Positions 24,201 to 53,006 of a DNA stretch of 64,000 bases are shown piece by piece. Position numbers and translations under genes: made by a program. Source of the stretch: Todiramphus chloris collaris (taxonomy: Eukaryota > Chordata > Aves > Coraciiformes > Alcedinidae); NCBI GenBank assembly GCA_025345505.1, contig JANVCC010000130.1, positions 6,987,125 through 7,051,124 of the forward strand, in the 5' to 3' direction. Position 1 is the first letter of the stretch; every line of letters begins with the position of its first letter. Below the pieces are notes generated by a model, which saw only the letters and a list, made by a program, of their open reading frames with translations, did no database searches and had not been told where the DNA came from.

Positions 24201-25687
24201 CTTAAAGATTGTGGGTGTGTGAGAAGACCATTGAACAAGCAGATAAAAGCTTGTAAGACAAAGCAAGTTCATTTGAATTAGACTCCTGGGCATTAAGTAA
24301 GCCAGAAATAGCAACAATGCACATGGGGAAAACTGTTCATTTTGATAGAAAGATGGGTAGGAATTAAATTTTTGCATCTGCCACAGGCTTTCTGGTTTGT
24401 GGCAGGGACATCACTGAGTCTGTGCCTTAGTCCCTCATCCATAAAGCAGGATGTTGTGCAGAAAATGGTTCCAGGCACTATCAAGTGTTAAGGACGAGAT
24501 ATGAACTTACATATACAGCAGATCCCTAACAAATAAAAAAAGGGTAGAGAGACTCTCTATAGTGACCAGACCTACCTGAATTTTAGAAAGGAACACAAAT
24601 GTTACAGAGCATGACAGATGGATGTACAACCACAAGAGAGAGAGATAAACCTCTGACCATAAAAGCCTGGAGAGAAAGAACAATTTTGCCTAGTAAGAAG
24701 GGAGACAATGCACAGAGAGATATATTCAGATGATGAGGCTTACTAAAATTAAGAGCAGAACAAATATCTGAACGTACCCTCAAAGGAATGCAGTCTAATT
24801 TCAGGGAGGTGTTATGTGGGCACCAGCTACTGCTATGATTAGTGGGTACAATCTACTCCTATCAAACATACAGAAGAAAAACACAGGAAAGTTACAGACA
24901 GGAAGAAACAGGGTTCCTGCTTGGGGGTAGAATAAGAGAAGGGGTGGGTATTCCTTCGAATATAGAGACAACGAGGAAAAGACCCTTGCCACACACAACA
25001 ACTTCAGCCTAAGAAGCTTGCACACTGGGATTCTTCCATTCAGATGTGAGTTATAGGCAGAACAGAGGGTGACTGGTACAAGTGGTTATTAAAGAAGATA
25101 CAGGTATTCACAAGATGAACTTCATGTACCAAAAGAAGGAAGCAAAGGAGACAAGCAGTCTGCAGACACTGTCTGGTTGCAGAGAGGATCACAGGGGCAG
25201 AGGAGACAGACAGACGATCGGAAAGGAAATTTTCCTTGAGGGCACAAGCAACCTTCCTGAATACATGTGAGTTTATTTGAGCAGGTTTGTGCGTACAAAG
25301 GAGCCAGGAGGAAGAAGGGAATGGATGGCACTGAGGCAGCGTGTGGTCACAGTGACAGTATTTTCTTGTAAAATGCTGAGGAACTGCTGGAAATCTTTAT
25401 TGCTCCTCTGATCATTCCCCCCCTCAGTATTTGATCTAACCAGTACTTGAAAAAGAGCTCTTTACTATGTAAGCATGTAAATAACAGCATATGTATAATC
25501 CTTGCTAACTTCAACTTCATTCTTTATTCTTTTCAGAATGACCAAAGTATGACAAAGCAACACACATTGGCTGCAGGAGACATGTCCCCGTCCCAAACAG
25601 CCTTCTCCTGCCCTAGAAAGTTTAAAAGCACAAAACCATGGGTGGGAGAAAGCAAATAATACCCTCGTCATGTTACGGATTGAGAAC

Positions 25688-25780
25688 CAAGGAAGAGAGA
25701 TAATAAATGATTTTCCCAGGATTTCACAGAAGGTCAGCAGCTAAAGTGGATGTTGCAACCCTCTCTCTTCAGCATCCATC
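25688..25780 (-). mobile_element. MIR-like ancient SINE fragment
   Basis: The order of blocks fits the reverse complement of the MIR core: taaatgattttcccaggatttcacag, then gtcagcagctaaagtgg, then gttgcaaccctctctcttc. Compare taa-tgacttgcccaaggtcacacag-ctagtaagtgg...gaaccca. It is strongly diverged and the call is by eye. It lies only about 240 bp from the 97-bp exon. Confidence 0.6.
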
Positions 25781-26023
25781 TGGTGCCTCAGTCACAAGGG
25801 TAGTGGATCTCTTTTAAGGACATTCTCTTTCACTCTCAGAGTGTCCTGGTAACAAGAGTATTTGAGTGAATGTATATATTGACTTTATATAGTTTTAAGT
25901 CTTACTGAACCATGTAGTACTTTTCTCCTCTATTTCCATCTCCCTTGCATTCACTTTTGGTCTGGGCTCAAATTATCAGTACTACTAATTCCATCCACAA
26001 AGTCAGTATTTTTATCTACTTAC

Positions 26024-26120
26024 AGTTCTGTTGGTGAAGTTACTGAAGTCTGTCACTAAGATTTGCTTGATCATCTCTGGTGTGGAGACCACTACAAACA
26101 TCTGGCGACCAATGTAATAC
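26024..26120 (-). CDS. TBXAS1: TBXAS1 internal coding exon, 97 bp (P450 beta-1 strands and B-helix region)
   Basis: Read on the minus strand, this is one base plus 32 codons. It encodes [12 protein letters not shown], then [10 protein letters not shown], then [10 protein letters not shown]. From memory, human thromboxane-A synthase (CYP5A1) has YYLGRRMF, PDMIKQVLV and FSNFTNR at about residues 80-110. CYP3A enzymes have the related but more distant GFYDGQQP, PDMIKTVLV and FTNRR. TBXAS1 is an ER-membrane haem enzyme that isomerises prostaglandin H2 to thromboxane A2. This segment should form the beta-1 strands and start of the B helix; the haem-binding Cys lies in later exons that are not seen. 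A TAG acceptor preceded by a short pyrimidine tract (ctttctttgtag) and a gtaagt donor flank it. The first base completes the split Gly codon from the 53-bp exon at 48625-48677, and the exon ends in phase 0. There is no stop or frameshift, so it looks functional. Gene identity is very likely; the orthologue call is from memory. Confidence 0.93.
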
Positions 26121-26741
26121 CTACAAAGAAAGAAAGTGCAGAGTCATTTTAGCAGATAATGACCACCAGAGAAACAACTCCTTTCCCCCTTCCCCAATAC
26201 CTCCTTCAGGAGGTAAATCAGTATTTTTTCTCATCCCTCTCAACTATTAAATTAAGATGTATTGTCCTAGAATTTAAAGGAAACAGCTTAAAACCTTTTA
26301 CTGATTAATCAATGCTCAGCCAACATCTTAACCCAAAGGTTTACACACTCTATGCTCACTACGAATTCTGTAAAATGTGATGTATCACTAAATCAAACTA
26401 CAGAGGGGCAAAACATTAGAAACCAACAACCCAAAAAATCATGAGAGACCTACAAAATTGGTTATTCTGCAGTTAGCCACATAAACTGCCTTTCCATGGC
26501 AAAGCCCTGTCTACAATGAGGCTTTCCAGAAGTCCCTCCAGTATGGCTGCAGTAAAGGCACGCTTCCACTGCTTCTACTAGCACTGGAGCCCACTGCAGA
26601 TCAGACCCTAGGCTCTGCATTAGCATGAACGTAACTATCTAACAGATACCATCTCAACCCTACATAAAACCAATGGGCAGTTGGGGGAAGAGAGAGACAG
26701 ACAAGAAAGAGTTCATGAAGCATAAAGGAATTAACGAAACT

Positions 26742-27194
26742 TCAGAAGAAAACTTGGTGATAGTGATCCCTCACTCTCTGCTTGTACACTCTCCATCTCC
26801 CTGCTCTCCATTCAAGCTGATCTTGTGGAGTCAGGGTCTGTCCTTGGGTGACTTCACACCGTTGTAGATGCCACAGAGGTACTGGGACACATCCCAGCTC
26901 CACAACTCCTGAAGGTGAAGAGATCTCTTTCCCAGCAGTATCCCCACCAAGGGTCCATGGGCAATCCATGGTTGGATGCTCTTTCAGGGTGAGGAAGAAG
27001 TACCACCAGCAAATAGAGGTTGCCTGCAGTTCCTTTGCTGACTGCTGGATCAGCAGGTGGTGCTGCCTTTGCTTTGCCAGGACAGAGGAAGAGGAGGCTG
27101 GACGTAGGCGCAGGAGGGCCAGGCAGCTCAGAGCAGAATACAAGAGCAATACCAAAGATGCTGCAATACCGTGATAATATTGACACCAAATCAT
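26742..27194 (-). other. GC-richer pocket with overlapping open frames, no recognised product
   Basis: The minus strand is open for 150 codons. The first third is rich in Leu and Ala (IAASLVLLLYSALSCLALL), like a membrane segment. A second minus frame (111 codons) and a plus frame (108 codons) overlap it, which points to low stop density in GC-richer sequence rather than a gene. I see no homology, splice signal or poly-A signal that would support a gene. It may be a repeat remnant. It lies about 620 bp upstream of the 97-bp TBXAS1 exon. Confidence 0.3.
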
Positions 27195-30156
27195 TTTGAC
27201 ATGATATAGCTTAATATCGATATATTGCTGATCACCTGTCTACACTGCAGCAACAGAACAGACAAGCAAACCCTGGGCTGAATTAAATTTAGTAACTGGA
27301 GGTTCCCATGGCAATGAAGCTGTAGCAGCACTGATTTCACTGAGGGCAAATAAGTCAGACAAATATCTTAATTCCAAAGCGGGGTTTCACAGTCTACCTT
27401 GACTCCTGTACCACCAAAACTTAAAACAAACAAATGTCAGAGAAGAACAAGACAATAATTTTCTTCAGGAAGGAGGAGATCTTCTTTTCCTCTCTGGTGG
27501 ACTTCCAGAGGAAACTGTTATTTCCCAAATCCAACCCACAGGCTCCACTTGAACCTTGGATACAGGTAGTACATTCTATTAAAATAAACCTTTTTCATCT
27601 CTCCCAGCTTTCTAAACCACAGCAAAACAGCTGGCTGTTAATAGTCAAACTTTCATTCAGAATCGTAATAGGAGCATAAGAGTGAGCTGAGGCCTCATTT
27701 TAAAGAGTGCTTTGATCACAGTCTTTGGCAAAAGGGGATAATGTCCTATGTGCCCCTTACACGTACACTTCTTACAATTTCTCTGGCATCAGAGAGGCAA
27801 AGCAAGCTCCCAAAATGAGGACCTGTGCTGCTCCAAACCTACCCGGGACGATCAGCCATGAATACTGACCTCTCACACCCACACCTTGCTTTTCTCTTCC
27901 CCTCTGCAAGTTTATCAATTTCCTTGTCTCATTTAATGGTTAGGGACTGATAGTCCTCCAACACACAGCTCTTCACAGGGATCAAATCCCTAAAACCAGA
28001 TGCCAAATCTGAATCAGAAGCTGATTGTGTCTACCCAGACAGCTTAACTCTGATCACCAGGAGGCACCACATGATATGTGTTGCAAAGTGTGTGTGTGCC
28101 TTGGAGTGTGTGCTTGTGTGTCTGTCAGAGACGCTTTTCATTTATTTCAAATCTGAGAAGCTGCAGAGCTCCAGCTCTGGTCCACTGGAACAGCAACACA
28201 GTACTCGCAGTCAGAGACCTTATGTCACAGTGTAGTTTGTGCTTGAAAGCATTTAGGACTAAAATTTGGGACAGGAGCATCTCCTACTCAAGTTGCTTTT
28301 CTGAGAAAGTGACTCACAAGCCAAGCTTCTGCAAACAAATCTATTCATCATTCTCCAACTCAGACCAGTCACCCGAACTCCCAGTTCTGCTTCCAGAGCT
28401 AAGCTCTTTCTTTTTTATTTACTCTTCTCAACTTTCTGTCTATAGGCACCTGTTTTTCCTTTCCTTATCCATTTATAAATAAGGGCAGAGAAGGATAAAA
28501 AGGGGGAAAAAAAAAACCCCTAAAATTAATAAATTAAAAATAATGAAAAAAAATCTTAAATTGGTCTTTAAGGAAAGTTCTGCCTGCTTTTAAGGAATGA
28601 CTGCTGTAAAGCACACACAGACTACCACCTTTTATCATGTCTCAAACAGCAAAAGCTCTCTTCCTGACTTTCTTCTGTTCGCCTACTTTCTGTGTATAAT
28701 CTTTCTAACCTTTTCTAGGACATAAAAAGAAGAGGGTGTGTATGGACATGCTTTGGAATTCAAATCTGTGGGCTAGAAGCATGACTTCCATGACATTCCC
28801 CTAAATTTAAGGAAAAGGGACAAGCAGAGCTAAGCATGAAACAAGATCATCTGAGCTATTTCATTTAGCAAACACAGGACCAGAATTTGCAAAGCCACCA
28901 GAAGGATGCTTTACTGAGTTTTAACATATTTTAAACCCTTTGTAGGATCAAGGCCTCAGTCACAAACCAAGAGGATATCTCCCAACTAGGTTGGTTTTTG
29001 TGTTGGTTTTTTTTTCAGCTTGTTCTGAAATGGCAAATAAAAGATAAAATCCTACTGAATAATAATCTATTCTTCCCGAGTAAATAACGTATTCACCCCT
29101 GCCATGTAACTTCATTTTGATTCTGTATTACTACATGAGGATATCACCAGTCTCACATAGACTTAGATTTATTATTGAACAAAACCCGATATTCTTGTCA
29201 GATTTTAATAAATAAGAGTTTGAGAAAAACAAAAGCCTCCCGGCAAGTGCATTACAAATGGATTCATGAATAATTTAGCACAGCACTTTTTATTAACTTT
29301 CTCTAGGTTAATCTTCTCACAAGGCTTGTCCACACACAAAAGTCCTACCTTCAAGTACGGTGATACAAAACCATTACACTGCTTGACCCAACCCTTTGCA
29401 ATATTTTCATGTAGGGTGTTCAGAGTGTAAAGCAAATGTTCAGGACTACCTAGATAACTCCTGCAGAGAAACAAAAACGCACAAAGGTAGAACAGTGTCC
29501 TCAGAGCGATGCAACTGTCCACATGGGAATCTATTGTAACGCTCATATCAGTAAGATAAAAATTTAACGACCCACACATGAATTTAATTTTCCTGTGTAG
29601 ATAGGGCCTTAGCTATTTAAGTTACACTGGTAGTGTAATTTCTATTAAATTGTGGTTTAAACTGCAACCCTCCAAAATAGTGGGGAAAAAAAAAAAAATC
29701 ACATGTTTTAGATTGGCAGCCTTAGCTCCATTGGAAGGTGAGACAGGAAAACCTGGTGCCAGTACATCAACAGCATGAGGACAGCGTTAGCTTCCTCCAG
29801 CAGATGAAAGGGCAGATGAGGAGTCATCACCCCAGTGGCCCGCATGGTTCTACTCCCAGAACTTGCGGAAAAGGCAGGCTGCCTTCCGGGGTGTTCACCA
29901 AAGGGCTCGCAGGTCAAGGGGGTGATTATGTTACAGTATATGGAGCAAAGGAAGTTAATCTGCATCCAGAGTGTTTTCATAACTGAAGAGGCTACAAACA
30001 CCCAACACACTCAGCTGCAGCAGTTTGGGTTGTAAGGACAGACAAGCACCACTCTTACGGCAATTAATGAGAAGGAGGGACACTTCTGCCTTGGGTTCAG
30101 ATTTTACCTGAGATACTGCGGTCCTCTTTGCAATGATTTAGACATTTAGTAAGCAC

Positions 30157-30209
30157 TATTTTATTTTATTTTATTTTACTTTATTTTATTTTATTTTATT
30201 TTATTTTAA
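30157..30209 (+). repeat. (TTTTA)n microsatellite
   Basis: About ten TTTTA units with one interruption (ttttac). Confidence 0.95.
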
Positions 30210-31853
30210 TCCACAAGAATAAGCAGCAATCCAATAACGATTTCTGCTGGTTTGTGTGTGTACCAACACCACTTATTGTCAGAGATATGGCCCAGATGTC
30301 TCAACCTGCACCTAGTGCCTGCTGTGGCCATGGAGGTAAGAGATGCCTTCCAAGTCCAACTACCAGCTGCGGTAGGAGCAGTGAGACAAGGGGCACATTG
30401 GGCTGCCCAGTCCCTCCTGCAACGTCCAAGCACGTCGCCTCCCTTTCCAGCATTTGCCAGGGACACCCCAGGAATGCAGATTTCTGTTCTCAGATGTAGC
30501 AAATCAATCAGCTACTTTTAATGCACAGGGCCAATGTAGCATTATTCTTTCTGTGGTGCCAAGATCGTTCTGGCCACACCGCATGGTCATCTACAGCTGA
30601 CAGCATCCCCCAGGTCCTGGAGCCACGCATGTGCTCTCTGAGCAAAGCCCACAGCAGTATTGCCTTGCTGCACAGGAAAAGATGGGAGTGCACACACAGT
30701 ACATCATGGCAAAGAGCCATATGTTTTTGTGTAACACCCATACGGGAAACACCTGCAAACCTTTCACCTTGTTTATAGTGATGCTGTCAATTCACAGAAG
30801 ACTTTGATCTCCCTAGCTATTATCAGTCCCATGTATTACAAACACATCATGTTCATCATAAAACACATATATGCTGTTAGGCAATAAACAAGACTTTGTT
30901 TTCTATGCTGCAGTCTGGTAAAGTACACAAAGATCATCTGGAAAGCTAAATGAAAGCAGAAAATTTTATTATCTCTATCTTCCTCAGGGAAGAGCAAAGA
31001 ACAAAGAGCCAGGGGGAAAAAAAAAAAGGAGGTATGCAGTGACAAAATTTTCTTTGGACACATAAATAAGTCCTTGGTCGCTCTACCTCTTTTGTTTAGA
31101 GACACCCATTCAGTGCATGCAAAGAAACACAAAAATGAATAGGGCACTGCTTGTTTAAAACATGACTGAAGCCTGGCGTTACTTGCTTAATTATTTCAGA
31201 GGTCAGCAAATTGATTTGTCATGAGCACTGTCCCCTTCCAGCTCTTGCAAGCAATTCAGACTCTGTAGGACTCTGCAATATGTAACAAACAGCTGTAAAG
31301 CCCAAAGCCATTCTTCATTGAAAGGGTAACTTTGGGCTGAGAGGAAAGGATGGAACAAAAAATTGTCAGGTACTGTGAGTCCTATTATTATTTGTGATAT
31401 ATTAGAAGCTAGAGGCCTCCAAGGTCCCCAGGCCCTAATTTGGCAGGAGTTACACATAAGTAGAAGGCTTATTCTAGGCCTGTGGAGCCTAGAATTTAAA
31501 TAACCTGGAGTGACAAACTGGGGAAAACAAACAATGCCCTCCATTTTCCATCTGAGGGACTGAGGGACAGGCAGGGATGGAGGAGACGGAATTGCCAGCT
31601 ATCACCTATTCTTTTCTCTGTTGATAGCCTGTGACAACAGAAGTCCTCAGCTGCCATGTACACCTGGAAAGACCATACCAGCTTTCTTTGGGAAGACTGC
31701 TGGAAAGCCAGGAGCTAACTCCATGCCACTTCTCCTGCATCCCAGGCCATGACTCTAGCTGGCAGAGTGCCTTCCTAGGCTATTTTTATAAACCTCTGAC
31801 AAACTGAGTATCTCTGGATTAGCAAACTGAGAAATGCACATTATGACTTAAGG

Positions 31854-31874
31854 AAAAAAAAAAAAAAAAAAAAA
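31854..31874 (+). repeat. Poly-A run (21 A)
   Basis: A 21-base A run followed by an A-rich stretch. No retrocopy was recognised upstream of it. Confidence 0.9.
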
Positions 31875-33895
31875 GGAAAAAACAGAAGCAACAACACAAA
31901 AACAACCGCAACACCCTAGAAACAGGTGAACTTGAAAATGAAGCCCTGGTAGGACTGAGCAGTCTCAGGCACAAAGAAAAGTTCCAAAGCAGAGCTCTGC
32001 TGACACACACACACACACGCCTCAGCCAGAGACTAATCCAACCCATTGTGTAAATTCATCAAAAAGAAGACTTGGCCACAGTGATTTCTATTTAAGAATA
32101 AATTGTCCCTTACTTCCTTTTTTGACAAAGTATGCTTCTTTTCATGTCGTGAAAGCTTTAAAATAAGCATATAGAACTATTAATTTAATTCCTGCCTGTA
32201 TTAAAAATATCATGTAACGAGATGCCCCGACGCTCGCGCGCACTTTCTGCACTGCTCTGTATTGCTGTGCACCCACCTCTTTGTCCACATACCCGGGATT
32301 AAAAATGCTATCTTCTACATACCAAGAACCTCTGCACTATCTCAAACTTGCACCTTGCCAAAAGACCTCTGCTTTCTGACATGCTTAAGAAAGTATCAAA
32401 AATGGAAGAAAATTCCAGGATTATTTATATTCTCCTCGCCACTAAAAGCATGGCTATTTTTAAAGGACTTTCTCCCATGTCAGGTGCAGTAAGAGACTCA
32501 TTGTATGAAAGTAATATATTTAGGGTTGACAATAAGGAGGAGGGCAGACTGAGGACACTACAAGGGACCGAAGTGGTAGAGTCTTTCAAGTATCTTACAC
32601 CAGGGTGCAAATGAGATCTATTTCTGAGCATCTCTAACCCCAGCTGGGGTTTAGCAACTTGAGGGTGGCACACACGTTTACTAATCCCTTCCCCCTCCCA
32701 AGTGAGCAGTGCAGGAGACACAGACTCTGCATGGCTGTGCTAATTCATTCATGAAATGAAGTAGATGACATTTACCCACATATAAGGAATGACAGGGATT
32801 AAATTAAGCTCGCAAAGTGCCATGAAGAGAGAGAAAAAAACACCTCTGAATTATACAAGCATATTTGGCAATCTATGTCCATTTGGTTTTCTGAGAAAAT
32901 CTGAGTCCAGATCCAAGTACAAAAACTCATGCCCACGTTCAGGAGTTGGGAAAGGAAGTAGCAAAGGGTATGGACAGGGATAACGGGATCGTTTTCTTCC
33001 TTGCTCCAGGTGGGCTGTAGAAGAAGGCAGGCGCCAGGGCAGCGTGTAGCCGTGGGGTCCCAGGCTATACTCTGTGGCAGCTGGAAAGCTGCCACTTCCC
33101 AGAGCTGGTGAGGTTTATTTTTATCCTGGAAACTGGGCTTAGATGATTGCCACCACCGCCACTGCTGCTCCGCGTGCTTGCATCATACTGCTAGCGCTGA
33201 TTAGCTACATCAGTATTCCACTTCATTAATGCGAAATGGAAGCTGTAAATAGGGTACTGCTTTTATAGGATGCTATTGGATATGAGGAGCACTGTGATAT
33301 TAATAAGAAACCAGTTGCTCTTCCTGCCTGGGTGTGCAGTGCTATTGCTACCGGGTGATGCTGAAAACACCCATAGCTCTTCACCTTGGCAAGAGTGCCA
33401 GAAGAAGGTTTCTAAATCTTTTCCCATGGTGTTTCCCACCAAGCTTGGATTGTATTAGTCTGTGTTTTGTTACCCATGTTTAGACTGTGACATTTTCACC
33501 AAGGCTTGTTTTGTCTGTGCTCGTTAAAGCACGGTATGCCTGACTGACCTCATGTGATGGTGCAGCAGACGTTTCCTGTGGGTTTCAGCATTTTTCTGTG
33601 CCTGGCCTTTCTGTGGGTTTGTGAGACATGGTGTGAGAGCAGTCTCATCTCGGGCTCTTTGCACCTAATTTGCTACCAAGTACTCCTTTGCCATACCTGA
33701 GAGAAAAACTATCAGGTTACTATTTCCAGAACACTGCATTATTATTTCTAATGAAGCGTACATCTGGGAGAAAGCAAACTTTCTGCTCATCTCCAAACCT
33801 TACTTGCTACCATCTACACACTGTCCATTTGTATGGATTTGTATGAGTCAGTTATATTCAACAGTGCTACCTATTTTCATCAGTTCTGTGAAAGA

Positions 33896-33913
33896 AAAAA
33901 AAAAAAAAAAAAA
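33896..33913 (+). repeat. Poly-A run
   Basis: About 18 consecutive A after gtgaaag. No retrocopy was recognised. Confidence 0.85.
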
Positions 33914-36900
33914 GACTACAAGATGGCTGAGAAAGATAAGGAGACAATGTTATTTGGGATAAACAAGGGCAGGTTTTTCTTCATCTCTTTTTTTCCATAT
34001 AAGGGAGGGAGAAGGATATGCTGAGGTCTTATCCTGATTTCTAGTCAGAGGCTCTAAGCAGCTTCTCTTGAGAGAAAGGTAAGCAATTGCTGGGAAACAA
34101 CAGGCAGTATTACCCCAGAAGAAGATGAGGGATATGACTGTGATGGTACATCAAATAATGTGGCCAAGAGAACACACAGAAGGGAAGCGTGCGGCACAGG
34201 GCTGCTTTCTAGTAACGTGGAGAGGACCCATCTGAATGGATGGCCGTGAAGCCAGAGAGGATCCTCAGTGTCCCAGAAAGCCAGAGAGCATGCATGTGTC
34301 ATGGTGCAGGCTCCAAGGAAAATTTGGCATCATGGAACAAAGAGCATATGTGTGACCATATGGAGAAAATGAAACAGGAAGGAGGTCAAAGGATTTAAAT
34401 ATAATTTGTGATACTATGACATTGCAAGATATGCAGGCTATAAACCAGGTTGCCTATAATAAAATCACAAGTGTAATAAAGTTGCTAGTTACACAACCAT
34501 CGCTAAACTCGATATAAGCAAACACACTTCACAATGACTAAAACAAAACCACTATGATCTGACTTCTACCTCTCATAAAGCATTTCTGAGGTTTGTATTC
34601 TTTTTCCTCCCTGAGACTTGACATCAGGGTACAAAGAAAAGCGATCCGTAAGTCTGCATTTGTGCAGCCTTCATCTCATATATACTTTACACATCATGGC
34701 TAGGACTCAAGTGTGACTACAGTTTTTCACATCTCCTCTTTTTGTTGGCCATTTCAGCCCCGGAGGAAAGAAAGGGCTTTCAGAAAACACTGAGTATCCC
34801 TATCTGCTGAAAAGTCACGTCCTCATACATATCTTCAAAAGAGGCATTCAGAACAGAGACATTCAAAATCAGTAGGCTGTTTCTGTTTGGTTTAATTCTG
34901 CACTTTATATTTGATTTCTTCGTAGGCAAGACAGCTCATGTGCCTCCTGTAAATACGATCAGCAGTGGTGGACAGTACAATATTTTATTTTTGCATGTGT
35001 CTGATATACACATATACATAATTTTCTTTCAGTCTACTTCTTGCTGGCATTTTGATATAAATCAATGAGAGAATTGCAATATATTGCACACCATCCCTTT
35101 TTATTCTTTTGCTCTGTTTATGTTAATGCAGATGCATGCACCTCTAAAATAATACGGTGTAGATATTAGAAAATTTTAATTCCTTGATGATAGCTAGGAC
35201 TCAATATACTGACTTTTTTACTCATAAACATAACATGATGAAACGAGTAAGCCAAACTGAGTTTGGTGTTACTACACATTCATAGGTCATTTTGTTGAAC
35301 AAAGAAACAGGACACTTCACCTTGGTCATGCCTACCAGCCTGAAGATGTCTGAAGTTTAAACAAATGAAAGCAGGGTTTCATAAGTGGGAAGCAGTGGGC
35401 AACCCATTAGTCAGGTTTGCATCCACTGCAGACGCAGATCCCCACCAAGACTGGACAATTTCACTTAGGCAAGTAAAGGTTTGCCACACAGGCCACAAGG
35501 GAGACAATCACTGGGACTGCTTTTCTTTCTCGATCTGCCTTAAAACTATATGTTGAAACAAAGAAAAAAAGGATAGTAACCACCTACTGAGCTCCTGGGA
35601 ATGTACTTTTTTATGCTATAGCATACAAAATGCACAGAAGAAAGATTCATTTTTCACAATCCTTGCATACCTATGGCAATGTGTACTTTTTCTATACATT
35701 CCCAAGATCTACATACACACATATACACAAAATCATTTAATTTTGTTAATGCATTATTAAATGCACACTAAGCCCAATAAAAGTCATTCCCCAATGCTTT
35801 ATGCATTTATCATGAAACGACTAGCAAATTCTTTACAATAAAAATGCTAGCCGTACACATAACCAAACTAAATTATCTTTGGAAATGGCTAATATCTGAC
35901 CATGTGGAAACATTAGAAAGCAGGGCTTTGTTATAGGACTAGAATGAAAAAAAGAGATGTATTTTCTTACAGAAAAACTGCAATGATAAAAATATTTTTA
36001 ATAGCAAAAACCATCGCAGCTCCAGGAAATTTTCCTGAATCAATTCAATCTGTGTTGTGCCGGACTTAAAAAAACCCATTAAAAATAACCGTGATAAATT
36101 TCCTAACCTCTTTCAGTGCACCACACAGAAGACAAAGGAAACTGCAATTCAACAGAGATAGAAAAGAAAGAAAGAAAAGAATGGAAAAAACTGATAGCTT
36201 GTGCATCAGTGGCAACATCCTCGCTAACAACGGGCAAACCTGCACCACAAAGGGTGAGAGGAATAGGAGTGATGTGTACAGCTGACAACGGCACTCCAAA
36301 GTAATGACTTCCAGGAAAATCTGCTGTTACAAATGGACAGCACGCTGCTGAGAAGCAGTTGAGTCACGACTTTCATAATACAGCAAATTATGTCGGCCTA
36401 AAAATGGACATACTGAAAAAACAGGATGTATATGGCTCTGGCAATGCAACTATGGGGATAACATCCTGCAAACAGCTAATATGCTCACCTGGTTTAAATT
36501 ATTAAACCTCACTGAAATTCATGCACATTCAGGGATTTTTCCTGACATTTAATGCGCAGTCACAAGGCACAGATCAGGTTTCAAATAGTAATGTAAGAGC
36601 CCTACCTAGTTGACCTGTTTTCCACTTACCACTTCGTACATGTTACCAGTTGTAACAAACACACTTTTCCTGCTCCCTTGTTTGGGGATATGAACCACTT
36701 TATCCTGAAACAACCCAAATCCTTGAGGATGGCAGAGTGCATTTAGCCCTCTCCCCTTCCATGGACGCACACTTTCACCACAGAACAGCGGGTCCAGTTC
36801 ACCCACCTCTTTCTTCTGACAGGCAGCCAGGGTGCAGCATATCACACTGGTGCTGGCACCCATTTCCCACGTGAGCATTGCACACGTTTGAGCTCTCTTC

Positions 36901-37323
36901 ACACATGCATTAAATGTCTGTCCTGGGCCCACATCTGGCTGCCCGGGAACACAAGTGAGATGTAGACTCAAGAATTTCTCCTCTTCGACTTGACCACAGC
37001 TGCTTGGCTAAAGACCTCAGAACTCCTGCAGACCTGCCTCATTGCTGAGTTGTCTGAATAAATGTTATTGTCCAACACCGCTTTGCTAAGTTACTCCCCA
37101 AACCCTCTGGACCTCCGGAGTCTACTGGAGCAGTTTCCCAGAGCCCTTCCTTCTAATCAGTTGAGTGTACATTAAACACCACCAGCTGTAGTTAGGATTT
37201 CCAAGAAGAACATTTCTGAACCAAAAATTTCATTTTTAATTGCTCACAGTCTACCTAGGGAAAAAAAAAAATAGGAGAACAAGTACATTTGAAAGCAGAC
37301 CTTCTAAATATACAGGTATTGGG

Positions 37324-37385
37324 GAAAGATCAAGTGACTTGATCCTCACACAACGACAGAGGCATAGCAGAGATACAACCCACTG
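37324..37385 (-). mobile_element. Possible MIR-like SINE fragment
   Basis: gatcaagtgacttgatcctcac, then agaggcatagcagagatacaaccc, resembles the reverse complement of the MIR core (ttaagtgacttgcccaaggtcacac...gcagagccgggattcgaaccc). It is short and diverged, so this is a tentative by-eye call. Confidence 0.45.
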
Positions 37386-39433
37386 AATCTATTCATAACT
37401 CCTGTAAATAAATCAAAAAAGAAAAATACAAGCACAACTGTAGGATGAACCATCACTGAAGTAAATATATTGATCTATCAAAAATGATTGAAGACTGACA
37501 ATAAAAGGGTTATAAATGCTTAGAAGAAAGAGAAAGCAAAAACACAAAACCAGCCCACTGAAAAACTCCCACCTGTATTCACAGGGAGAAATGGACTGGA
37601 ACAATAAAACACAATGGCAGTGCCTGTACATCTTTGATAGCTGCCCCTCCCAAAAGCTGGAGCAGTCTTGCTGTAAACCAAGCAAATAAAAATGTAAATG
37701 CACGAGCAATTGTCTGGGGGATTCAGATGCTTCATGTCCTGTAGGCAAAGAAGGGGGAAAAGGCAGGAAAGAGAGAGAAGGCACCACTTTTAATATTTGC
37801 AATTATTGATCCCCTCACTTGGAGCCATTGTAATCCAGCAGAGACCTTACAGTTAAATATGCAACCCTGCCTGCACGGCTGCCAGCAACACCCGCTTGCC
37901 CTCTGACCTCAGAACAATCCGCTGCTTCAACTGCCCTGGCAGGAGGTGGCAGGAAGGGACAGGCTGCGGATTTTGGAGGTGCCAGCCGGAGAGAATCACC
38001 TGAACGGCTGCCTGCAGAAATCCAGTCATCGAAATGGCAGGTTCAAAAGAGCCACGGGATGGGGAAAGAACGCTGAGCACAATGCCCAGAGCAGTCCTGA
38101 GTGTAGAAACACAGCAGTGTATCAAAGGGGTATCAGGGGCTACTTGAAGGCTTACGAACTGTGTATTTGTTTAAATATTTTGCTAAGGAAACAAACATGA
38201 GGAAAATTATGGTAGTTTCACAAAATTGATTCTGTTCTTCACTATTGATGGAAATCCAACTGTGTTAGTTATTGGGCAAAAGCAAATAAAAAGCTTCTGA
38301 CACGGGAGAAAAGCTGAGTTTGTAGTAAGTTTATGCACTTCAAGTATTAATCTTCTCATTTTGCAATACACTTCTCTTCCTCAAAAAGCAGAACTTATTT
38401 TAATAGAAAATAATTTAATATTTAACGGCTAATGGATTTCCACATGACATTATGTTACCTTTTGACCTATTTTAACATTTGCCTCTGTGCTGCACTTGTA
38501 GACCTACTTTCTCTTTCTCCTGCCCCATGCATAGGTTATTTCCTACTGGGCCAAATGGACAGCCAGCGGACATATAAAATTGTTAGGCTGCTTTGATAAC
38601 ATTTTACTTTGGTCGTTCACACAGAGTATTCCATAAGATGTTCCACGTGATAAAAGGTCCCAAAGAACCAAGATCCTCTCATAATGTCACTTTGAAAGAT
38701 TCAGCAGCAATTCCGAGAGTCCTTGCCAAGATCCTTTTTCAATAACATAGATTCCAACATTGACAGAAAAGCTTGGTTTATTGCTGAGTGATAAAATGTC
38801 TACTGCTAACCCTTACAGAGTCAGAACATTGGTCCCAACTCACTCCTTTTTCTGTAAACTACTTTAAGATGTCTGGATACATCTTAAAATTTGCTGTACA
38901 AAACCTAATTTTATTCAATAGGCACCACCATCCAAAAATCGAAGTCATATAACATGAGAGAGACCTAAAAATGTGGGGTCAAGATCCCCAAATAGTCACA
39001 GCTCTCTCTATGCCTTTAACCTTTAACAGAGTTACTCTGAATTAGGCAACAGCTTAAAGGTCCAGACCACTACCTTTGTTTATGTGGGGGGAGAGAGAAG
39101 ATTCTGGGACAAGAAATGATTAGAATCTTAATAAAATTAAAGTAGAAAAACCTACCGTGGAAGTACACCCCTATAGATACAGTAATTGCTGGATGAGATG
39201 GTCATTTTTTTTTTCTGATGTAGATGGTGTCATTGCAGAACTATCATGTCTGTGCATGGGAGGTTTTTTAGCATCACTATAGCTGCTTAATTATACCAGT
39301 ACAATTTTATCAGTATAACTAAAATAAATCCTCCTTCAAGACAAGCCTTCAGGTTTAGCCACCAAATTTAATGGAAGGAAAGAAAGATTCACAATCACCA
39401 GGGTGATTGTGGCTCAGATCATTCCATTCTCCC

Positions 39434-39720
39434 TGTCCTGGTTTGAGTGAGAACAGAACCATCATACTCCCCAAGCAAAAAAAAACCCCAAAAAAACAAC
39501 AAAACCAACCAACAAACAAAAAAGGAACAAAATAACAGCTGAAAACAACTTCTTCCTCCACAGTGGAGTATAGTTTTGCCTATTGCCTGATGAAATCATA
39601 CCCAGTTCACTAGCAGCAGAAGGTCTGACATAAAGCAGACTCTCTAGGGAAGGAAGAGAGGTAGTTGAACTGAGAGAAAGGGTAATTTGAAGACGGTGCC
39701 AAACCAACAAAGAAAAAGGA
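39434..39720 (+). mobile_element. LTR-like sequence start, possible degraded ERVL LTR
   Basis: TGTCCTGGTTTGAGTGAGAACAG resembles the 5' end of avian ERVL LTRs (TGTCCTGGTTT...), in plus orientation. An A/C-rich low-complexity stretch (about 39478-39530) follows, then anonymous sequence to about 39720. I could not find a matching CA end or a target duplication, so the right boundary is a guess. Confidence 0.4.
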
Positions 39721-40744
39721 AATATTTTGTTCCCCCTTACTACTAATAAAACATAGTAGACTCAAATTGATCCCCAGACTAATAAGGTAGAGGAAAAACT
39801 AAAACCTATATATGACAAAACAATAAAGAAGTAATGAAGAGATTTATGGAAGTACATAAAAACCTTGAAATGACGTAAAAATTGTCAGGTCATGTTACTG
39901 TTTTCAGCTCAACATGGGTAAGAAAACCAGGAAGGAATAAAACTTAGAGTGAGAAGGTAGGATAGCATAGGGCTGAAGAAGATGGAGAGAAGATGGAGAG
40001 AAATCTAAATCAGAGCAAACATTTAGAGGAGAAAAAAAAATAAATAGAGCAAGCCCATAAGACAAGGTTGTCATTGTAAAAAGAAAAAAAAATCAGAACA
40101 AACCCCAGAGCCAACAAAGTGGCGGCACCATTGAAGGACAACAGGCAGCAACTGAAGGGAAGTGCCTCCATAAATACCCGGCAGTGTGGTCATCCTCAAA
40201 AGAGAAAATTGACTATTTATGAGAAACTAAACAAGAGACATACCCAATCCATCCCTGTGCAATACTTTGGTGTCCTAAGGGGCAGAGACCCCACAAGGTC
40301 ATGTCTAAGGACTCCTCAGCATGGGGAGAGATGGTCTAACCAGCATCTGCATCATGGTGCTCTTAGAAGGTGGGCATGCGAGGGGACAGAGGCATGGATG
40401 CTCCACACTGTGCTGGGCTTGCAGAGAATAGTGACATGAAATGGACTGCTGATTTGCAGTTTCTTCTCTGTATCCTTGTTCTCTAGCCTCCAGTGGGGGG
40501 TATGTGGGGAAGGGAAATCCCTTTTGCTAGATGCTTCTTATGGCATGCAAGAAAGCAGTCACAAGTTGCTTCTAGATTTCCTTGGGCTGCCACAGAGAAA
40601 GGTAAACTGTCAGTATGAAGACACCTGGAGACGCAGTAACCTGACTCTCCTGTGAAGTGTTTTGTGACCAAGGAGGGCAGGAGTACCTCCTGAGTTGCAG
40701 CATTAAAGTTGATCTCCTTCAAAGGCTGGGAAAAAAGGCAAGGG

Positions 40745-40779
40745 GACACACACACACATACACACACACACACACACAC
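40745..40779 (+). repeat. (CA)n microsatellite
   Basis: About 17 CA units with one T interruption (cacataca). Confidence 0.96.
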
Positions 40780-43007
40780 TGGGAGGAATGATGCATTTTC
40801 CTTCCTCTGTGTAGGGTAGGGAAAAATGATTCAGGAACTTCATTTAAAAATTACTATGCGTGGCACTGGGAACACCAGTTCATAATCAGATAGATAGCGG
40901 GTGAAGCCAGAGACCATTAATAGCTACTGAACATTACATATTGTATGTATTGACATCAGGTTTGCATCAATACTTCTGGGTGCTGCAGGAAATTTTAATG
41001 AAAGAGTTTAATATGCGCAGCAAAATCTACCACATATTTTCCCGTATTTTCTAGTAGGATTGGTGTACTGAAATAACGCCTCAGATTGTTCAGTCCTTTA
41101 AAAGCCTTCAGCCTGCTTCTTCTGAAATGGTGGAAAGGGGGAAAAAAATCACAAGGTGGACTTTACAGCTTGTTTAGAAGATTAACAAACACAGTCTCTG
41201 GTAGGTGGTGAAGAGGGTAAATCAAGGTGAAATTGAATCTAAGAAACTAGTTTTTATAACTGTGGGGTTTAGTCAAAATATCTTCTCCTCCTGCCTTTAA
41301 TTAGGATGCCAGAGTCTGGTATGCAGGTGCTGATCATGATGGTGTAACGTGATAAGAAGAGGCAATCTGCTTAGCAGTCCCATCCCAAGACCTTTACAAT
41401 GGTGATTTTAAGTATTAATTAGCTAAGAAGCAGCCGATACAGATCAAAGATCACGCATGATTTATAATTTGGTATATGCTCCTCAGGTAGCATGTTTTCA
41501 AAATAAACTTCAGGTTTCAAATAATCTTAACATGGAGCTCACAAGGACTATGCTTTAACAGCTACGTGCTGCACTATCAATGGGCAAAGAAATGAGGACT
41601 CAAAGAAACATCTCCCTGGGAGCAAATGGAGGTGAAAACTCCTCCTAGCCAAAGCTGCTACCTGCACATGCAGAAGCAGACCGAGATTCCTCAAACACTA
41701 AGAGGTACATGGTACAAAGTCTGCACTCTGGTTCCCTTGTGAGTCTTAGGAGCTGACACAGTTCTGGCCAATCTCACAGAGCCTTTCTGCATCTGGCCAG
41801 TGCTGTCTCAGTGGAGCTGAACCAACCAGGGGATTTCCCTCTACACAAACACTAATTTGCTGAAGCTACGACCACAGCAGTTTGCACATGTTGTGAGTAC
41901 AGAAACCAATACCAGGAACATGGTGCAGGTGACAGGCACTGTCCTTTGCTGCCTTGCCAAGAGCTTATAAAATGTTGTCTGTCTCATTTGGTTGGATTTC
42001 ACACTCTCTTTCCAGAGGTGTAAAAGATTACATCAGGTCTTTGACTTACATTGGCTTGAACAGCTGCAGTAGAGTCATGGAGCAGTCATGGATGGAGGAA
42101 AGAAACTTGGAAAAAGCACAGCAGTGAGCACATGCTTGCAGCTCAACCACCCTAGGGCAATGTCTGGAGTCTCAGAGAAGAGATGGGGGGCTTTCTATGC
42201 AGAAGGGTTTACCACTTGCATCAAACATTTCCATCCAGATGTCTCTGCCTGCACTAAGGGTGGTGACTGTGACATTTTGGTGGGCTTTTGAGTCTCTGTC
42301 TGCAAATATCTAGAACACAAGTGTCCCTGGACCTGACTGGGACAGAAAGAGGGTACAGTAACAAATCAACAGCCACCACAGAGTAGAGAAGTTCAAGTTG
42401 CATGGTTCTCATGGGATATTATAGTCCACACATTAAGATTTATCCATGGCTAAGATGAGCTCATTAATGAATACCTTCAACATTACTGATACACTAAACA
42501 TCAATTTGCAATGTTCCAGAGACCTAAGTACATTTGAAACATGCCAGCATTAAACTAGTCAACTAATTTACCATAAATTCTGCCTATAAACTGCATCCCA
42601 TAGGTCTCCATAAGTAGAATGTAAAATACTCCATAATGATCAGGCAGCCCACAAAGATGATCACAACTGTAACAATAACACCAGACTCCAGTTCTCAAAA
42701 CAGTATGGTATGCCACCTTTTGGGTAAATCTTCAGGCATCAGTCCCATAAAAGAGTATGTTTAGAAAGAAGAAGAGAATCTGGTGATGATATACCCATAA
42801 GTAACTCACAGGACTTGTTCCAGCAGTTTGATTTAACCATTGGAAATAACTATAACCAAAACCTTATGGTTAAGCATGGGGGGTCAGATGGAGATGTACC
42901 ATGACACTACATTTCTGCCAGGAATATTGTTGAGTTTGGGCTCCTCTTTTAAAAAGACAACTTTAAAATAAAGGTTACTATTAACAAATTCTGAAAGCAC
43001 TAATAAT

Positions 43008-43023
43008 AAAAAAAAAAAAAAAA
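43008..43023 (+). repeat. Poly-A run
   Basis: About 16 consecutive A following ctaataat. Confidence 0.85.
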
Positions 43024-43310
43024 GCGAAGAAAGAAGGAATCTGAAAGTTTTTATTTAAGAATGTTAAGATTATCCTATTGTTCAGTCCATTTTTGAGATA
43101 ATCTTTTCCATTTCATAGAGAATGACTAGCACACTACGCAGAGGAGCAATAAAATTGCCTACATGCAAATTGCTGTCAAAAGAGGGATGGGGAGGGGGAA
43201 GAAATATTTTTCTGCCCATTAACTTCTTTCAGCTACAATAAACCTAGGTGTTTATGTGTATCAACAGCAGTAAAAGTATTTTTCATGCAAAATGCAATTG
43301 TTTCTTTTAC

Positions 43311-43430
43311 GGCCCTGATTCAGCAAGGTAGATAAACTTCTGCCTAACTTGAAACATGTTGAGTAATACTATTGACTCAAATGGAATTACTCATGTGCTC
43401 AGTTAGGCACATGTTTAAAGTTTCTGCTGC
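43311..43430. mobile_element. Palindromic ancient MITE-like repeat
   Basis: The block starts ggccctgattcagcaagg and is organised as a long imperfect inverted repeat. The centre has GAGTAAT (43361-43367) facing ATTACTC (43386-43392), and the outer arms carry gcctaactt...acatg against catgtgctcagttaggc. This resembles an old inverted-repeat element I remember from turtle, crocodile and bird genomes, in which sequence like cctgattcagcaaagcacttaagcac surrounds a symmetrical core (gtcccattgacttcaatgggac). It is probably a non-autonomous DNA transposon. The right terminus has decayed. I cannot give a family name with certainty. Confidence 0.62.
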
Positions 43431-46400
43431 ACCATATCCACAATTTGAAGGTATTTAAAAGAAAACGAGAAAACTCTAACTCACAATAGCAGTTCTGGGG
43501 CTGATGAACAATCCTATAAAGTCAAAGGACCTTATCACAACACATAAATGAGGAACATAGTGAGAAAAAAAAAAATCTTGATGGAATATAAAAGACTTGA
43601 CTCTAACCAAAAAAGTGTATCACTCTTTAAGAAAAAAAAAAATAAAATTCAAGGATGCTACCAGAAATCTTTATGAGGTTAAACATGAAAAAGAGATTAT
43701 GAAGAGGTATAGGAAAGGTGGAAATAGGAAGCCTGTTTTCCTTCTCTCCCTCCTATCCTTGCCCAGGTAAGATTTTCTCTAGCTGAAATGTGAAAAGTAA
43801 ATTGTTTAAAATATCAAAATAAAGGAAGAACCACAGGAGAGGTAATAAGTCCATTACAACCCAGGTGTAAAAGAGGAAATCAAAGGATAAGATTGTTTCA
43901 TAAAACTAAATTATTTTTTTACATGAGCCTTCAGAGACAACGATAAGAATACCTGTCCTGGGATTACTCTTTCCACATAAAGCAGAATAAGCTAGAAACA
44001 GAGATGAAGACAAAAAAAACAAAAAAACACCACAAAAAAACCCACCCACAACTTTGGGAAATTAAAATGGAAATAAAGACATTGTTTCTTCAGGTAAATT
44101 AACTTCACGATGAAGACATCAGTTGTTCCCTGCAGGAGGATATTCTGCCTCTATCCACCTTAGGTTTGCCCTGACATGTTTAAGGATGGCAGAAGGAAGG
44201 TTAAGGCTTTGAGAAAAGTTCCAGATGCCCGAATCCCAGAAATGCAAATCCCTCTTCTGTCCACGAAGGAGAAAAACCCCAGACCTCCACAGTGGCTAAC
44301 CAATGTTCCTCTGCCATGATGCAGAGGCCAGGAGCAGCAGCAGCAGAGGCCTGTTACTTGTCCACAACCCTGTGATTATGGACTCACCTGCGGAAATGCT
44401 AACTAGTGCCATCTGCAGTGACATTTTTTTGGGAGAGAAGTCAAGCATTAAAAGAGAACCAACTCTGGTTGCATAGACTTTGGAAAAGCTGTCAGCTGCC
44501 AGCATGGTTTACAATCACAACTCACCCCTGGACACATTTCAAGTTAGTGACTGGCTCCATCATCTATCCTAACTGTTTAAACCACCCAATCATTTAACTG
44601 ACCAGGCTTCATCTTCATTCCAATAATGACTTATCAGGAAACCATTTAAGGAACATTAGGAAGTCTTTAAGGAAAACAAAAGAAAAACCACAACAAAACA
44701 AAAAACAACACCATCCACAGATCAGACATTGTGTAATCCCATAATCACCTTAAGAAAAATCACCTGTCCTATTTTAAGCTGCTTTCTGTGTTTTACTTTA
44801 AAATGTGCTGAAGTAACCCAGTGCAAAACAAGACGCATTCTATATGGAAATGGAGCCCCATTCACATCTCTGTTTTCACAGGATGCTTCAGGAGCGCCTA
44901 GACCCTGACATGCTTTCTGTGGTACTGTGCTGATCCTGGTATGCTTATGCTGGAGCTCAGCAGAGGCTCAGCATAGGTAGATGCATTTTGCTGATGGTGG
45001 TTTTACTTGGGACTGAAAATGTTTACAAGTGGATCTTGTCAGAAAAGTTCTCATTAATTCCCACCCATAAGAAAATGCAGATTTTGAGTTTATTGCCTCC
45101 CTTTGCCAGCTTACAGCCTGAAAACCCTCAGCTCAAACACCCCATTTGTCTTCTGCTTTCTCGAGGTGATTTAATCTGAACTCCATCCTCCTGCTACTCC
45201 TAGATCCATCACTTCGTCTCTGCCTTACTTTGTCCTTGTCCTCTTCAGCACTTATTCTACTACGTAATTGTTCAGACTTCTCACAGCAGATTGAGAGTTC
45301 AAGTGAAAGAAGAGTAAGAATAGAGTTTGACCTGTTGTTTCAGATGCAAAGGGACATGAGAAAAGAGTGTCACCTACAAATTACAGTGAATTTTAATCTT
45401 ATGTTCTTACTCTTTGTTTATGCACATTGAGGTCTGTATTATGAACTCTTTACATTCTTCCCCACATCCAAATGAATTGCTACAGTTGAAGGCAGAATAG
45501 GTTCATCCATCCCAGAGGCAATCACCTGCCCGCTTGGGGCTGTATCACATTTTCTCTTCCTTCACTGACAGTGTGGTGTTGGGCCAAGAATATAGTACTT
45601 ATTTTGGCATTTATCTCCAACTCCAAATCAGCCATACATGCTTACAGTGCTGTAAAGACATAATAATACCATCACAGTAGAGTGATCAAATGCATATGAA
45701 GTGTGTATATAAAGTAAAATTAACTTGCTGCCTCTACATCTCTGCTCATGCTGTAGCAGTTGCTTTTCTGATTCCATAAAGTATACTCTCCCCCTTTATT
45801 TCTCCTCAGACAACTCAGAAGTTCTTTGCTTCTCTGTCTGCTCTTACCACTTATTTCCAATCAGTAGCCACAACCAACAATTGAAATGGAACCATTGGAT
45901 ATGGTGGGGCTAAAACCAAAGTATCAAAACATCAAAAATCATCCAAAAAATAAGTGACATACGTCACTGATTTCTACAGAAGCTAGGACTGCTTCTCTGT
46001 TAAACTTTTACTGTAAAATTGAGAATATTCAGGACAAATCTTAACACATATCAGTACATTGCTTTCCGAATAGGATATTTTTCACTTTTATTTTTGTCAT
46101 GAAGAACCAGCACGCATATCTTAGAGGAGACATTTTTATAGAAGGTACTTCAAACTATAGCTGAACCAAAGACTACCACTCTGTTGCAGGATCTTTTCAA
46201 AAGCCACATCAGTGGCTTGGACTCCCCAGTTGAACAGAAATGCTCCAATTCTGCTTTCGCATCCAACCAGGGATGTTTGTTTCTGCCTTGGCCTCCATCT
46301 TGGGCCACCTCTGTATGAAAACAGACAGTTTTCACAGCACACACTCACAACTGAAGACTATTTGCATTGTCTCTATAGGAGTAATACCATCACCTCTCCT

Positions 46401-48624
46401 TTGGATCCACACACGGGAGTGAAGGAAAAAAAAAATGCTTTTGTGACCTACAAAAGCCTTACTTGAAATAATTCTCTATGACTTGAGGCCTTTTGGAATG
46501 GAAGGGATATATTGTTTTGACTTGATTAAAGCTGAAAAGTTGATTTGACATCCTGTTGTCAAGGAAACCAATTCACACACAAAAGAAAACAGTTGTGATG
46601 GTATCATTCAGACTATTCAAGTGACCTTAGAAAGAAAAAAAGGCTTCAGTTCCAAAGATTTGTATTCAACTCACTTCACCACTGTAGAAATAAAGATCAT
46701 TGCTCTTTATGCTTATTGGAAAGCAGTTTTCAATCTGGAAAAAGCAAAATGCCACATCTTCTTCCAGCTGCCAGATCCAATACTTTGCTGGGACCATGCA
46801 CATTCACACACCTACCATTTCCTGCCTATTTCAAAGAACGACAGAAGGAATCAGATGAGATGTATAGGGAAGAAGAAGGAAATTCTTTAGTTGACAGGAC
46901 TGTGATAAATACCCCCTGACACATACCACACCTATTGAACAGCAGCTCCCAAGCCAGGTTTTAAAACATCCTCCTTCAACTACAAATAAAGCTTACCTCA
47001 AGCATAACAATGTTTGAGTCCAGCTTTGTTTTCCTGGGAGATATCAAAAAAGCAGTATTTTTATTCTGCCAGCCTCCTAGATCCCTCACAAATTGAGTTT
47101 TTCATACAAGCAATAAATGGGACATAGTTATGCTTAATCTGCTCAGTCTTCCTACCTACAGGGTCCCAGGAGTCAGAACTGTCCTGGCTGACCACTACCA
47201 CCACCACCATCCACCTCTGCAGCCCATGCAAGTCTTGCAGAGGTTTCATTCCCTAACAGCTGCGGGTAGGTTGGAAAAACGAAACTTTCTATCTATCCAC
47301 TCACACGCTGTAATTACAGCTCTCTTTCTCCAATGACACAGCCTCTGCCTGGCCAAGTGAGCAGATAGACAACTAAATAGCAACTTGTCTCAAATTGGGC
47401 TTAGAAAAAAACAGGCTTGATATTAATAAGGAGGGAAATACACTGAGGAACGAATGCCAGTGTTCTTACATTATTGTCATTTAAGGGCATCACACCAAAG
47501 GTCAGAGATAATAAGCCTCAGTCATTTTCCATTTGTTACACAACATACAAATTGCCACAGTGTTAATGAATATCTTTCTCCATTCCTGGCCAGCTAAGAC
47601 ACTGTATTATTTCCTCTTAGACAAGTACCTAACCCTTGGAATTCATTATTTCCATCACTTCTTGCAGCACTTTTGTCCTTAGGGCTGAGCATAAATGCCA
47701 CAAGGAGGCTGTGACTGGAGCATCAAATGCTTCATATGGCTTAGCCTGACTTCTTTCTGATAGATTTTTTTTTGGCTGGAATAGCATACAAAGCACATTT
47801 ACATCATTTATGATCAAATATGCACACACACCTTCATATATGCTCCCTTACAAGTGTCTTAAGCCCCTTGCAGATCAAGGTGGAGGGGGGGTAAAGACAT
47901 TGTCTGTACTCTGCGGATATTGCTTGATAATTATACACTGAAATAATTGTTATGATAGAAACACTAACTGACCACAACAATAGAAGCTACTGCGAAATAA
48001 CTGCATTTTCACTTAAAATGATGACAACTGGAAAGTAGTTCTTGGAACAGAAATGACATTCACAGAACTGTGGAAAGGCTTGTGTGAAGGGATGTACTGC
48101 TTAAACCCTCTTTACTCCTAATAAACTGCTAAGATAGCACAGCTGAGCTATAGAGAGAGGAATGCCTCATTTCTAATCTGTACTTCATTGTATTTTAAGT
48201 TTAGGAATTTTGCATAAATATAGATAGTAACAGCTGAACCAAATTCATACTGTTTCATAAACTGAGGTTTTTTAGGATGATAAATTATTATTTTCACTGT
48301 TCACTCAAAGTATAAAAAATATGCGGATGAAAGGAGAATATTGAAGGCTGGTAGCTTTGTACAGCTCTGAAAAAGACTAAACCTTATGTGCATAATTAAA
48401 ATTAGAAAGAGAAGAATGAAGTCCAGCATCAAATGCTGAACTAAAAGAAGCCAAGGTTACTTACTGAATATAATCAAACAACCTCTACCTCTGTCCCCTA
48501 GACTGAAACACAGCACTCTGCATTTTGATGAACATCTTATCTTGGCATTTTCTCCTCTCCCACCCAACAAATCCAAATAGCAAGTGCCAGAAAATAAGAA
48601 AGCTGATGGCACTGCTAAACTTAC

Positions 48625-48677
48625 CCGCAAACTGGTCCATACTCCATTATGAGTTTTGAGTGGTTTTCCCAAAAACC
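48625..48677 (-). CDS. TBXAS1: TBXAS1 internal coding micro-exon, 53 bp (P450 A-helix region)
   Basis: Minus-strand reading gives GFWENHSKLIMEYGPVC plus the first two bases (GG) of the next codon. Human TBXAS1 has GFWESQMELRKLYGPLCG here (about residues 62-79, from memory), so the Gly-Phe-Trp-Glu start and the YGP-hydrophobic-Cys-Gly end are shared. The exon follows a cttttattcag acceptor and is followed by a gtaagttt donor. The GG left at the donor joins the G at the start of the exon at 26024-26120 to make GGG (Gly), giving ...PVC-G-YYIG..., as in the human protein. CYP3A genes also have a 53-bp exon here, which supports homologous gene structure. It is too short for an ORF search to find. 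The segment is the A helix leading into the beta-1 sheet, on the membrane-facing side of the P450 fold. The preceding exon, expected at about 94 bp with a proline-rich hinge and an FIGN-like motif, was not found in the window. Confidence 0.92.
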
Positions 48678-48943
48678 CTGAATAAAAGAAAAATAACAAA
48701 GTATTTTAGAACAGTATGTAACAGAAACTCTATTATACATTGTAGCTAACACACCAAACCTTTGAACCTCAGCTAGGACAATCATGGTACTGACTCATAA
48801 TCTCACCTTTCTCCCATTGTCCATCTGTGACAGTAGAGTCTAGAAATGATGACTGAAAAAAGTCCCAACCCCAAAAGAGACCTGGAAAGCCCTGAAACAT
48901 GTTTTAACCAGGGTTTTACACTCCAAAATATGCTAACATTTCA

Positions 48944-48960
48944 TTTTTTTTTTTTTTTTT
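48944..48960 (+). repeat. Poly-T run
   Basis: About 17 consecutive T after catttca; on the TBXAS1 strand this is poly-A, about 270 bp upstream of the 53-bp exon. Confidence 0.85.
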
Positions 48961-50005
48961 AAACTAATTTCATGATTGGGGTCCTGACCCATAATTTCTT
49001 TCTGGTATGTGTGTGGATGGGAAAAGAGAGAAATTAGTAATGGAATAAATACATGACTTACTACACACAAGAGAAACATGGGAAACATAGAAAGTTTGTC
49101 TTGGTTTGGTCTGTTTGTTTTAAAAAAAAGCATAACTGCAAAGTTGAAGTTTAGCATGAGGCAGTCACCTGGGACACTCTGCAGAACAGTGAGCAGATTT
49201 ATTTTTAACAAACTTTTAATATTTTTACTGCATTTTATTTTCATAATTGATGAAAATTGGTATCCATTTATCTAAATAAACCTGCCACTATACTAAATTG
49301 TTAGTGTCCTAAATGAATTCAAATTGATTAATCTGAAGAAAGGTGTGCAAAATATACCCGCAAACATGAATACAAAAAATCTGTTTTAACAAAACTGTGA
49401 TATTTCAGAAACGTACTGCATTGTGTTTATGACTTGTCTATGGAAAAATAACACATTTGACTGCATTCATCTGCATTTATATTAATTCAGGAAAGACTAT
49501 CGTGATCCATCTTCATTCTTCAGAGGAAATTCACTAACAAAGTAGAATACTTATGCCTCATATTGAATCTTTCTTATTTTTCATGACATACTGCAGAATA
49601 TTAGCTAGAACAATATGAACTATTGTAAATACATTAACCACAGACAAAAATAAACAAGGCCATGTGATGTGTTTACTCTTTGGGAGCATTATACCACACT
49701 AAGCAAAAGGAAATCTGGTAATCAGAAGTAGTTATCACCCTTGGGTACTAACTTACCACCCAAATTAGCAAAGCACTTGCCACCACCTACAGTCCTCCTC
49801 CCTTCAATTATTTTTTATGCTTAATACAGTTGTGCTTTTTAATTTTTTTAATCCTGGACCTGCAGTATTTTTATTCTACAGGACAATATGTCTTCAGGTT
49901 AAGGCAAGAACTTCAGGTGTTCCTTAACTATAAAAAGCTAAAGCAGTGGATGGTGTGTAAGAAAACACACTAAAGATAAAATTATGACAGAAGTGGCTTA
50001 GGTAA

Positions 50006-50051
50006 TTGCCTGAAAAAAAAAAAAAAAAAAAAAAAATTCTTGCCTGAAAAA
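50006..50051 (+). repeat. Poly-A run (24 A) flanked by an 11-bp direct repeat
   Basis: ttgcctgaaaa (50006-50016) precedes a run of A to 50036, and the same word recurs at 50040-50050 after ttc. The pattern could be a minimal poly-A insertion with a target duplication, or slippage. Confidence 0.7.
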
Positions 50052-52959: not shown

Positions 52960-53006
52960 TGTTGTTGTTGTTGTTGGGTATTTTTGTTTGTTTGTTTGTT
53001 TGTTTT
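52960..53006 (+). repeat. (GTT)n followed by (GTTT)n
   Basis: About five to six GTT units, then ggtattttt, then about five GTTT units. Confidence 0.93.

Follow-up and report, generated by a model that had tools for sequence, protein, structure and literature searches.

Coding exons 3 and 4 of the thromboxane-A synthase gene TBXAS1 in a 64-kb stretch of bird DNA

The stretch of DNA analyzed here (the window, 64 kb) is almost certainly an internal piece of bird TBXAS1 (CYP5A1), read on the minus strand; it contains the third and fourth coding exons with intron 3 complete between them, flanked by portions of introns 2 and 4. Its product, thromboxane-A synthase, is a known enzyme of the blood-clotting signal. 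The initial annotation had described the window as TBXAS1 exons plus intron; both components stand, and the description is refined by placing the exons third and fourth among 13 coding exons and by adding the two partial introns. The features, in window coordinates, are as follows.

48625..48677, minus strand: TBXAS1 coding exon 3 (53 bp; GFWENHSKLIMEYGPVC plus 2 nt of a Gly codon)
26024..26120, minus strand: TBXAS1 coding exon 4 (97 bp; the last nt of that Gly plus 32 residues)
26121..48624, minus strand: TBXAS1 intron 3, complete (22,504 bp, GT-AG, phase 2)
48678..64000, minus strand: TBXAS1 intron 2, 3' part (whole intron, 25,284 bp)
1..26023, minus strand: TBXAS1 intron 4, 5' part (whole intron, 27,129 bp)

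As minus-strand sequence, with a slash at each border, exon 3 (48677 to 48625 in its own order) is ttttattcag/GGTTTTTGG...TTTGCGG/gtaagt (acceptor, ...TTTTATTCAG; donor, GTAAGT), and exon 4 (26120 to 26024) is ttctttgtag/GTATTACATT...AACAGAACT/gtaagt (acceptor, ...TTCTTTGTAG; donor, GTAAGT). Spliced together they give 150 nt, or 50 codons, with a Gly codon split GG/G in phase 2. The exon 4 donor, ACT/GTAAGT, scored just 2.2 on an approximate splice-site matrix. Both segments, their canonical splice sites, and the phase-2 Gly had been proposed in the initial annotation, and all were intact when reread from the sequence. So was its remark that no open reading frame (ORF) of normal length is present: the window has 117 stop-to-stop ORFs with a length of 80 amino acids (aa) or more, and the longest measures 165 aa. 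Ten of these ORFs (119 to 165 aa), searched against Pfam, reached no family cutoff (sole row, SNAD1; E = 0.0085, under its cutoff), and an Rfam scan of the window returned nothing at gathering scores. The window looks "gene-free" because its two exons amount to just 150 bp in 64 kb.

The bird's own assembly (1,173,753,469 bases, 889 contigs) was searched; in it the window is C90:6987125-7051124, and flanks of 110 kb below and 90 kb above it were analyzed on the same contig. The remaining 11 exons flank the window, on the same strand and in order, which confirms its reading as a minus-strand piece of TBXAS1. All coding exons of the gene, in contig coordinates, are as follows.

C90:7115824-7115727, minus strand: TBXAS1 exon 1
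C90:7061179-7061086, minus strand: TBXAS1 exon 2 (94 bp)
C90:7035801-7035749, minus strand: TBXAS1 exon 3 (within the window)
C90:7013244-7013148, minus strand: TBXAS1 exon 4 (within the window)
C90:6986018-6985902, minus strand: TBXAS1 exon 5
C90:6978729-6978641, minus strand: TBXAS1 exon 6
C90:6976180-6976032, minus strand: TBXAS1 exon 7
C90:6974330-6974200, minus strand: TBXAS1 exon 8
C90:6953504-6953190, minus strand: TBXAS1 exon 9
C90:6890656-6890568, minus strand: TBXAS1 exon 10
C90:6888112-6887975, minus strand: TBXAS1 exon 11
C90:6884579-6884417, minus strand: TBXAS1 exon 12
C90:6883779-6883705, minus strand: TBXAS1 exon 13

These 13 coding exons (noncoding 5' exons being outside the scope of the count) run in order on one strand over 232,120 bp from start codon to stop codon, exon 2 lying 9,962 bp past the right edge of the window and exon 5 lying 1,107 bp past the left. 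Introns were GT-AG in 12 of 12 cases, and the 1,608-nt coding sequence has a single, terminal stop. Its 535-aa product carries the ExxR motif as ETLR at 401 and the heme motif FGAGPRGCIG at 474; ExxR and the heme-cysteine are P450 motif patterns. The gene is an intact 13-exon, 535-residue P450 over 232 kb. Within the window, a search with pieces of one relative's protein (P0004) gave no convincing match for exons 1, 2, or 5 to 13 (best, exon 1; E = 0.012, 32% identical, plus strand). According to the accessible part of one article, human TBXAS1 has 13 exons and 12 introns (PMC9343182), a count equal to that on C90. Literature searches on bird genomes and on chicken thrombocytes gave no article, and the abstract openings listed by other searches contained nothing on the structure of TBXAS1 in birds. 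About 9 kb downstream of the TBXAS1 stop, PARP-domain matches lie on the plus strand of C90 (6873491-6873670 and 6874494-6874742). In human, the neighbor of TBXAS1 is PARP12, in convergent orientation, and this PARP-domain gene is its candidate counterpart.

Three repeats lie in the intron sequence of the window: a purine-rich microsatellite of AGAGGG and GGAGA units at 13649-13899, broken at 13695-13794 by 100 N that probably mark an assembly gap; an inverted repeat at 8263-8379 and 11103-11219 (117-nt arms, 82% complementary, 2.7 kb apart); and a tandem array of 2.5 copies of a 34-bp unit at 63383-63467 (100% matches).

At 53 and 97 bp, the two exons are short, which would favor a chance reading built from ORF fragments. 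In tblastn of the window, exons 3 and 4 of P0004 scored 42.7 and 65.5 bits; the highest values over 200 dinucleotide-preserving shuffles of the window (N removed) were 23.5 and 23.1 bits. Both matches are well above chance level, and a chance reading is vanishingly improbable. The 50-aa peptide of exons 3 and 4 alone matched Pfam p450 (PF00067) at 28.8 bits (cutoff, 22.8), and three further exons of the locus also matched this family. Its closest protein of similar length, and the sole one returned, was Antrostomus carolinensis "thromboxane-A synthase-like, partial" (E = 7e-25, 94% identical). In a padded-query protein search, 97 of 112 candidates reached E ≤ 1e-10; 93 were named thromboxane-A synthase/THAS (one of them, from a gecko, bears the additional UniRef label Cytochrome P450 3A), 3 were unnamed, and 1 was a "hypothetical protein." At E ≤ 10, the listing drew 75 proteins from 879 candidates: 72 were named thromboxane-A synthase/THAS, 2 were unnamed, 1 was "hypothetical," and none of these 75 was named CYP3A. 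An origin of the exons in a different P450 gene that shares this exon layout, be it CYP3A or some other, would draw on the relatedness of CYP3A and TBXAS1, and CYP3A7 and CYP3A4 were the best-matched solved structures; that listing (26 sequences) includes no TBXAS1 structure, so it was unable to show a TBXAS1 match. What the CYP3A family shares with the peptide is the P450 fold and the same general protein region: CYP3A7 is identical in 20 of 50 aligned columns and is one residue longer close to the segment end, whereas bird TBXAS1 reaches 48 of 50, the top identity, found in 14 of the 98 relatives compared. Searched against its own genome, the peptide hit four places, namely, both exons, C61 (40% identical, E = 0.29), and C7 (37%, E = 2.7). 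With the remaining 11 exons on C90 also matching TBXAS1, an origin in another P450 gene is exceedingly improbable. The proposed assignment to TBXAS1 rather than CYP3A is borne out, with no better match to another P450 among the proteins listed or in the bird's own genome.

Taken alone, the window offers two short exons and nothing further, as would an isolated copy of TBXAS1 exons, whether a pseudogene, a retrocopy, or a partial duplicate. The introns contradict a retrocopy, and all 13 exons share one unbroken reading frame across 12 GT-AG introns. Genome-wide, one TBXAS1 locus was found in a search that scored only the best candidates, so that a diverged second copy could escape it; other matches were weaker P450 places on C618, C61, and further contigs. 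Sequence remains blind to a silent promoter defect. Overall, we regard a pseudogene or duplicate as very improbable, and the gene as an ordinary orthologue of a well-known enzyme gene with nothing unusual about it. It shares with bird TBXAS1/CYP5A1 the 535-aa length and the 13 ordered coding exons, and the differences seen are ordinary species changes only, such as HSK and LIM in exon 3: among 107 proteins, LIM was common only to a barbet and HSK to a rhea, and HSK is present in a skink too (98 relatives). Over the full length, identity ranged from 93.6% (Aphelocoma) down to 57.9% in 50 relatives of 500 to 545 aa, the closest full-length protein being that of a jay. The affinities suggested by LIM, HSK, and the full-length protein thus disagree.

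Exons 3 and 4 were joined directly in 95 of the 107 proteins, which came from searches with these exons and are not an independent sample; two had exon 3 plus an insert, and 10 had no exon 3 motif. In the goose, dipper, tit, and sparrow models the sequence switches exactly ahead of GFW, the wagtail and hummingbird models have an insert exactly between CG and YY, and the antbird and bobwhite models have one exactly behind NRT; these points mark the borders of exons 3 and 4. We infer the splicing of the gene from its own sequence and from these related gene models. DNA resembling the extra or alternative segments of such models was located in the window as follows.

50979..51299, minus strand: like the alternative 5' segment in TBXAS1 isoforms X1/X5 of the goose Anser cygnoides (two stop codons; GT missing at the matching end)
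47169..47259, minus strand: like the additional segment that a wagtail (Motacilla) isoform has between exons 3 and 4 (frameshifted)
35350-35529 and 27869-27961, minus strand: like the flycatcher (Pitangus) extra segment before exon 4 (stops)
3070-3168 and 218-346, minus strand: like the antbird (Willisornis) extra segment (stops)

Weaker Pitangus matches were seen at 45186-45136 and about 38.1 to 37.8 kb, and the order of the extra-segment matches in the window fits their place in the respective proteins. As conserved coding exons, the wagtail, goose, Pitangus, and Willisornis segments were rejected here, the matching DNA having stops or a frameshift; for 47169..47259 the frameshift likewise excludes the role of a coding cassette exon here. 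These segments have the look of orthologous intron sequence or of lineage-specific exons, not of conserved coding exons. The alternative N termini of the dipper, tit, and sparrow models were also rejected as window exons: they match the exon 1 region, in another frame, as exon 1 plus preceding DNA (7115918 or 7115984 to 7115727). The match runs precisely up to the donor site of exon 1, the pattern expected if the 94-bp exon 2 were skipped, and that frame contains a stop in this genome. Since the sparrow N terminus belongs at exon 1, the sparrow match at 50444-50310, a weak one (E = 0.25), is most likely due to chance. Outside the window, C90:7067656-7067498, which precedes exon 2 by about 6.3 kb, encodes 53 stop-free residues 85% identical to a macaw (Ara) isoform N terminus, a possible conserved alternative first exon.

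Intron 2 also contains a CpG-rich stretch, which precedes exon 3 by about 1.5 kb.

50180..50720, no strand assigned: CpG-rich stretch in intron 2 (GC content, 0.61; CpG observed/expected, 0.67 versus 0.19 for the window)

The stretch is single-copy and is one of three CpG-rich spots detected with the same thresholds in 264 kb, another lying about 13 kb upstream of exon 1. Among 3,867 scored GT sites on the minus strand of the window, one inside this stretch, GAG/GTGAGT at 50295, was the second strongest, and this donor-like site is in phase 0 with exon 3 along a local 119-aa ORF. Goose isoform models begin in DNA just upstream of the stretch. The stretch may be a regulatory island, and we consider it a doubtful candidate for an internal promoter in birds; if it were such a promoter, transcripts from it would lack exons 1 and 2, and hence the membrane anchor. 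Against this role, the goose-like segment is frame-broken here and has no GT at its matching end. In a query that included the island ORF, the 75 listed proteins (of 879) aligned with approximately the exon 3 and 4 part only (query coverage, 43% or less).

By orthology, the spliced product would be a membrane-anchored heme-thiolate P450 that converts prostaglandin H2 into thromboxane A2. The part encoded by exons 3 and 4 would come directly after the N-terminal anchor and the proline-rich hinge, placed near the start of the P450 fold because Pfam profile positions 22-69 were matched. Several alternative segments in the TBXAS1 models of other birds correspond here to intron or to off-frame exon 1, which calls for caution with those models. 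A gene with very short exons and introns of 20 to 60 kb can be recognized from raw sequence, as confirmed here.
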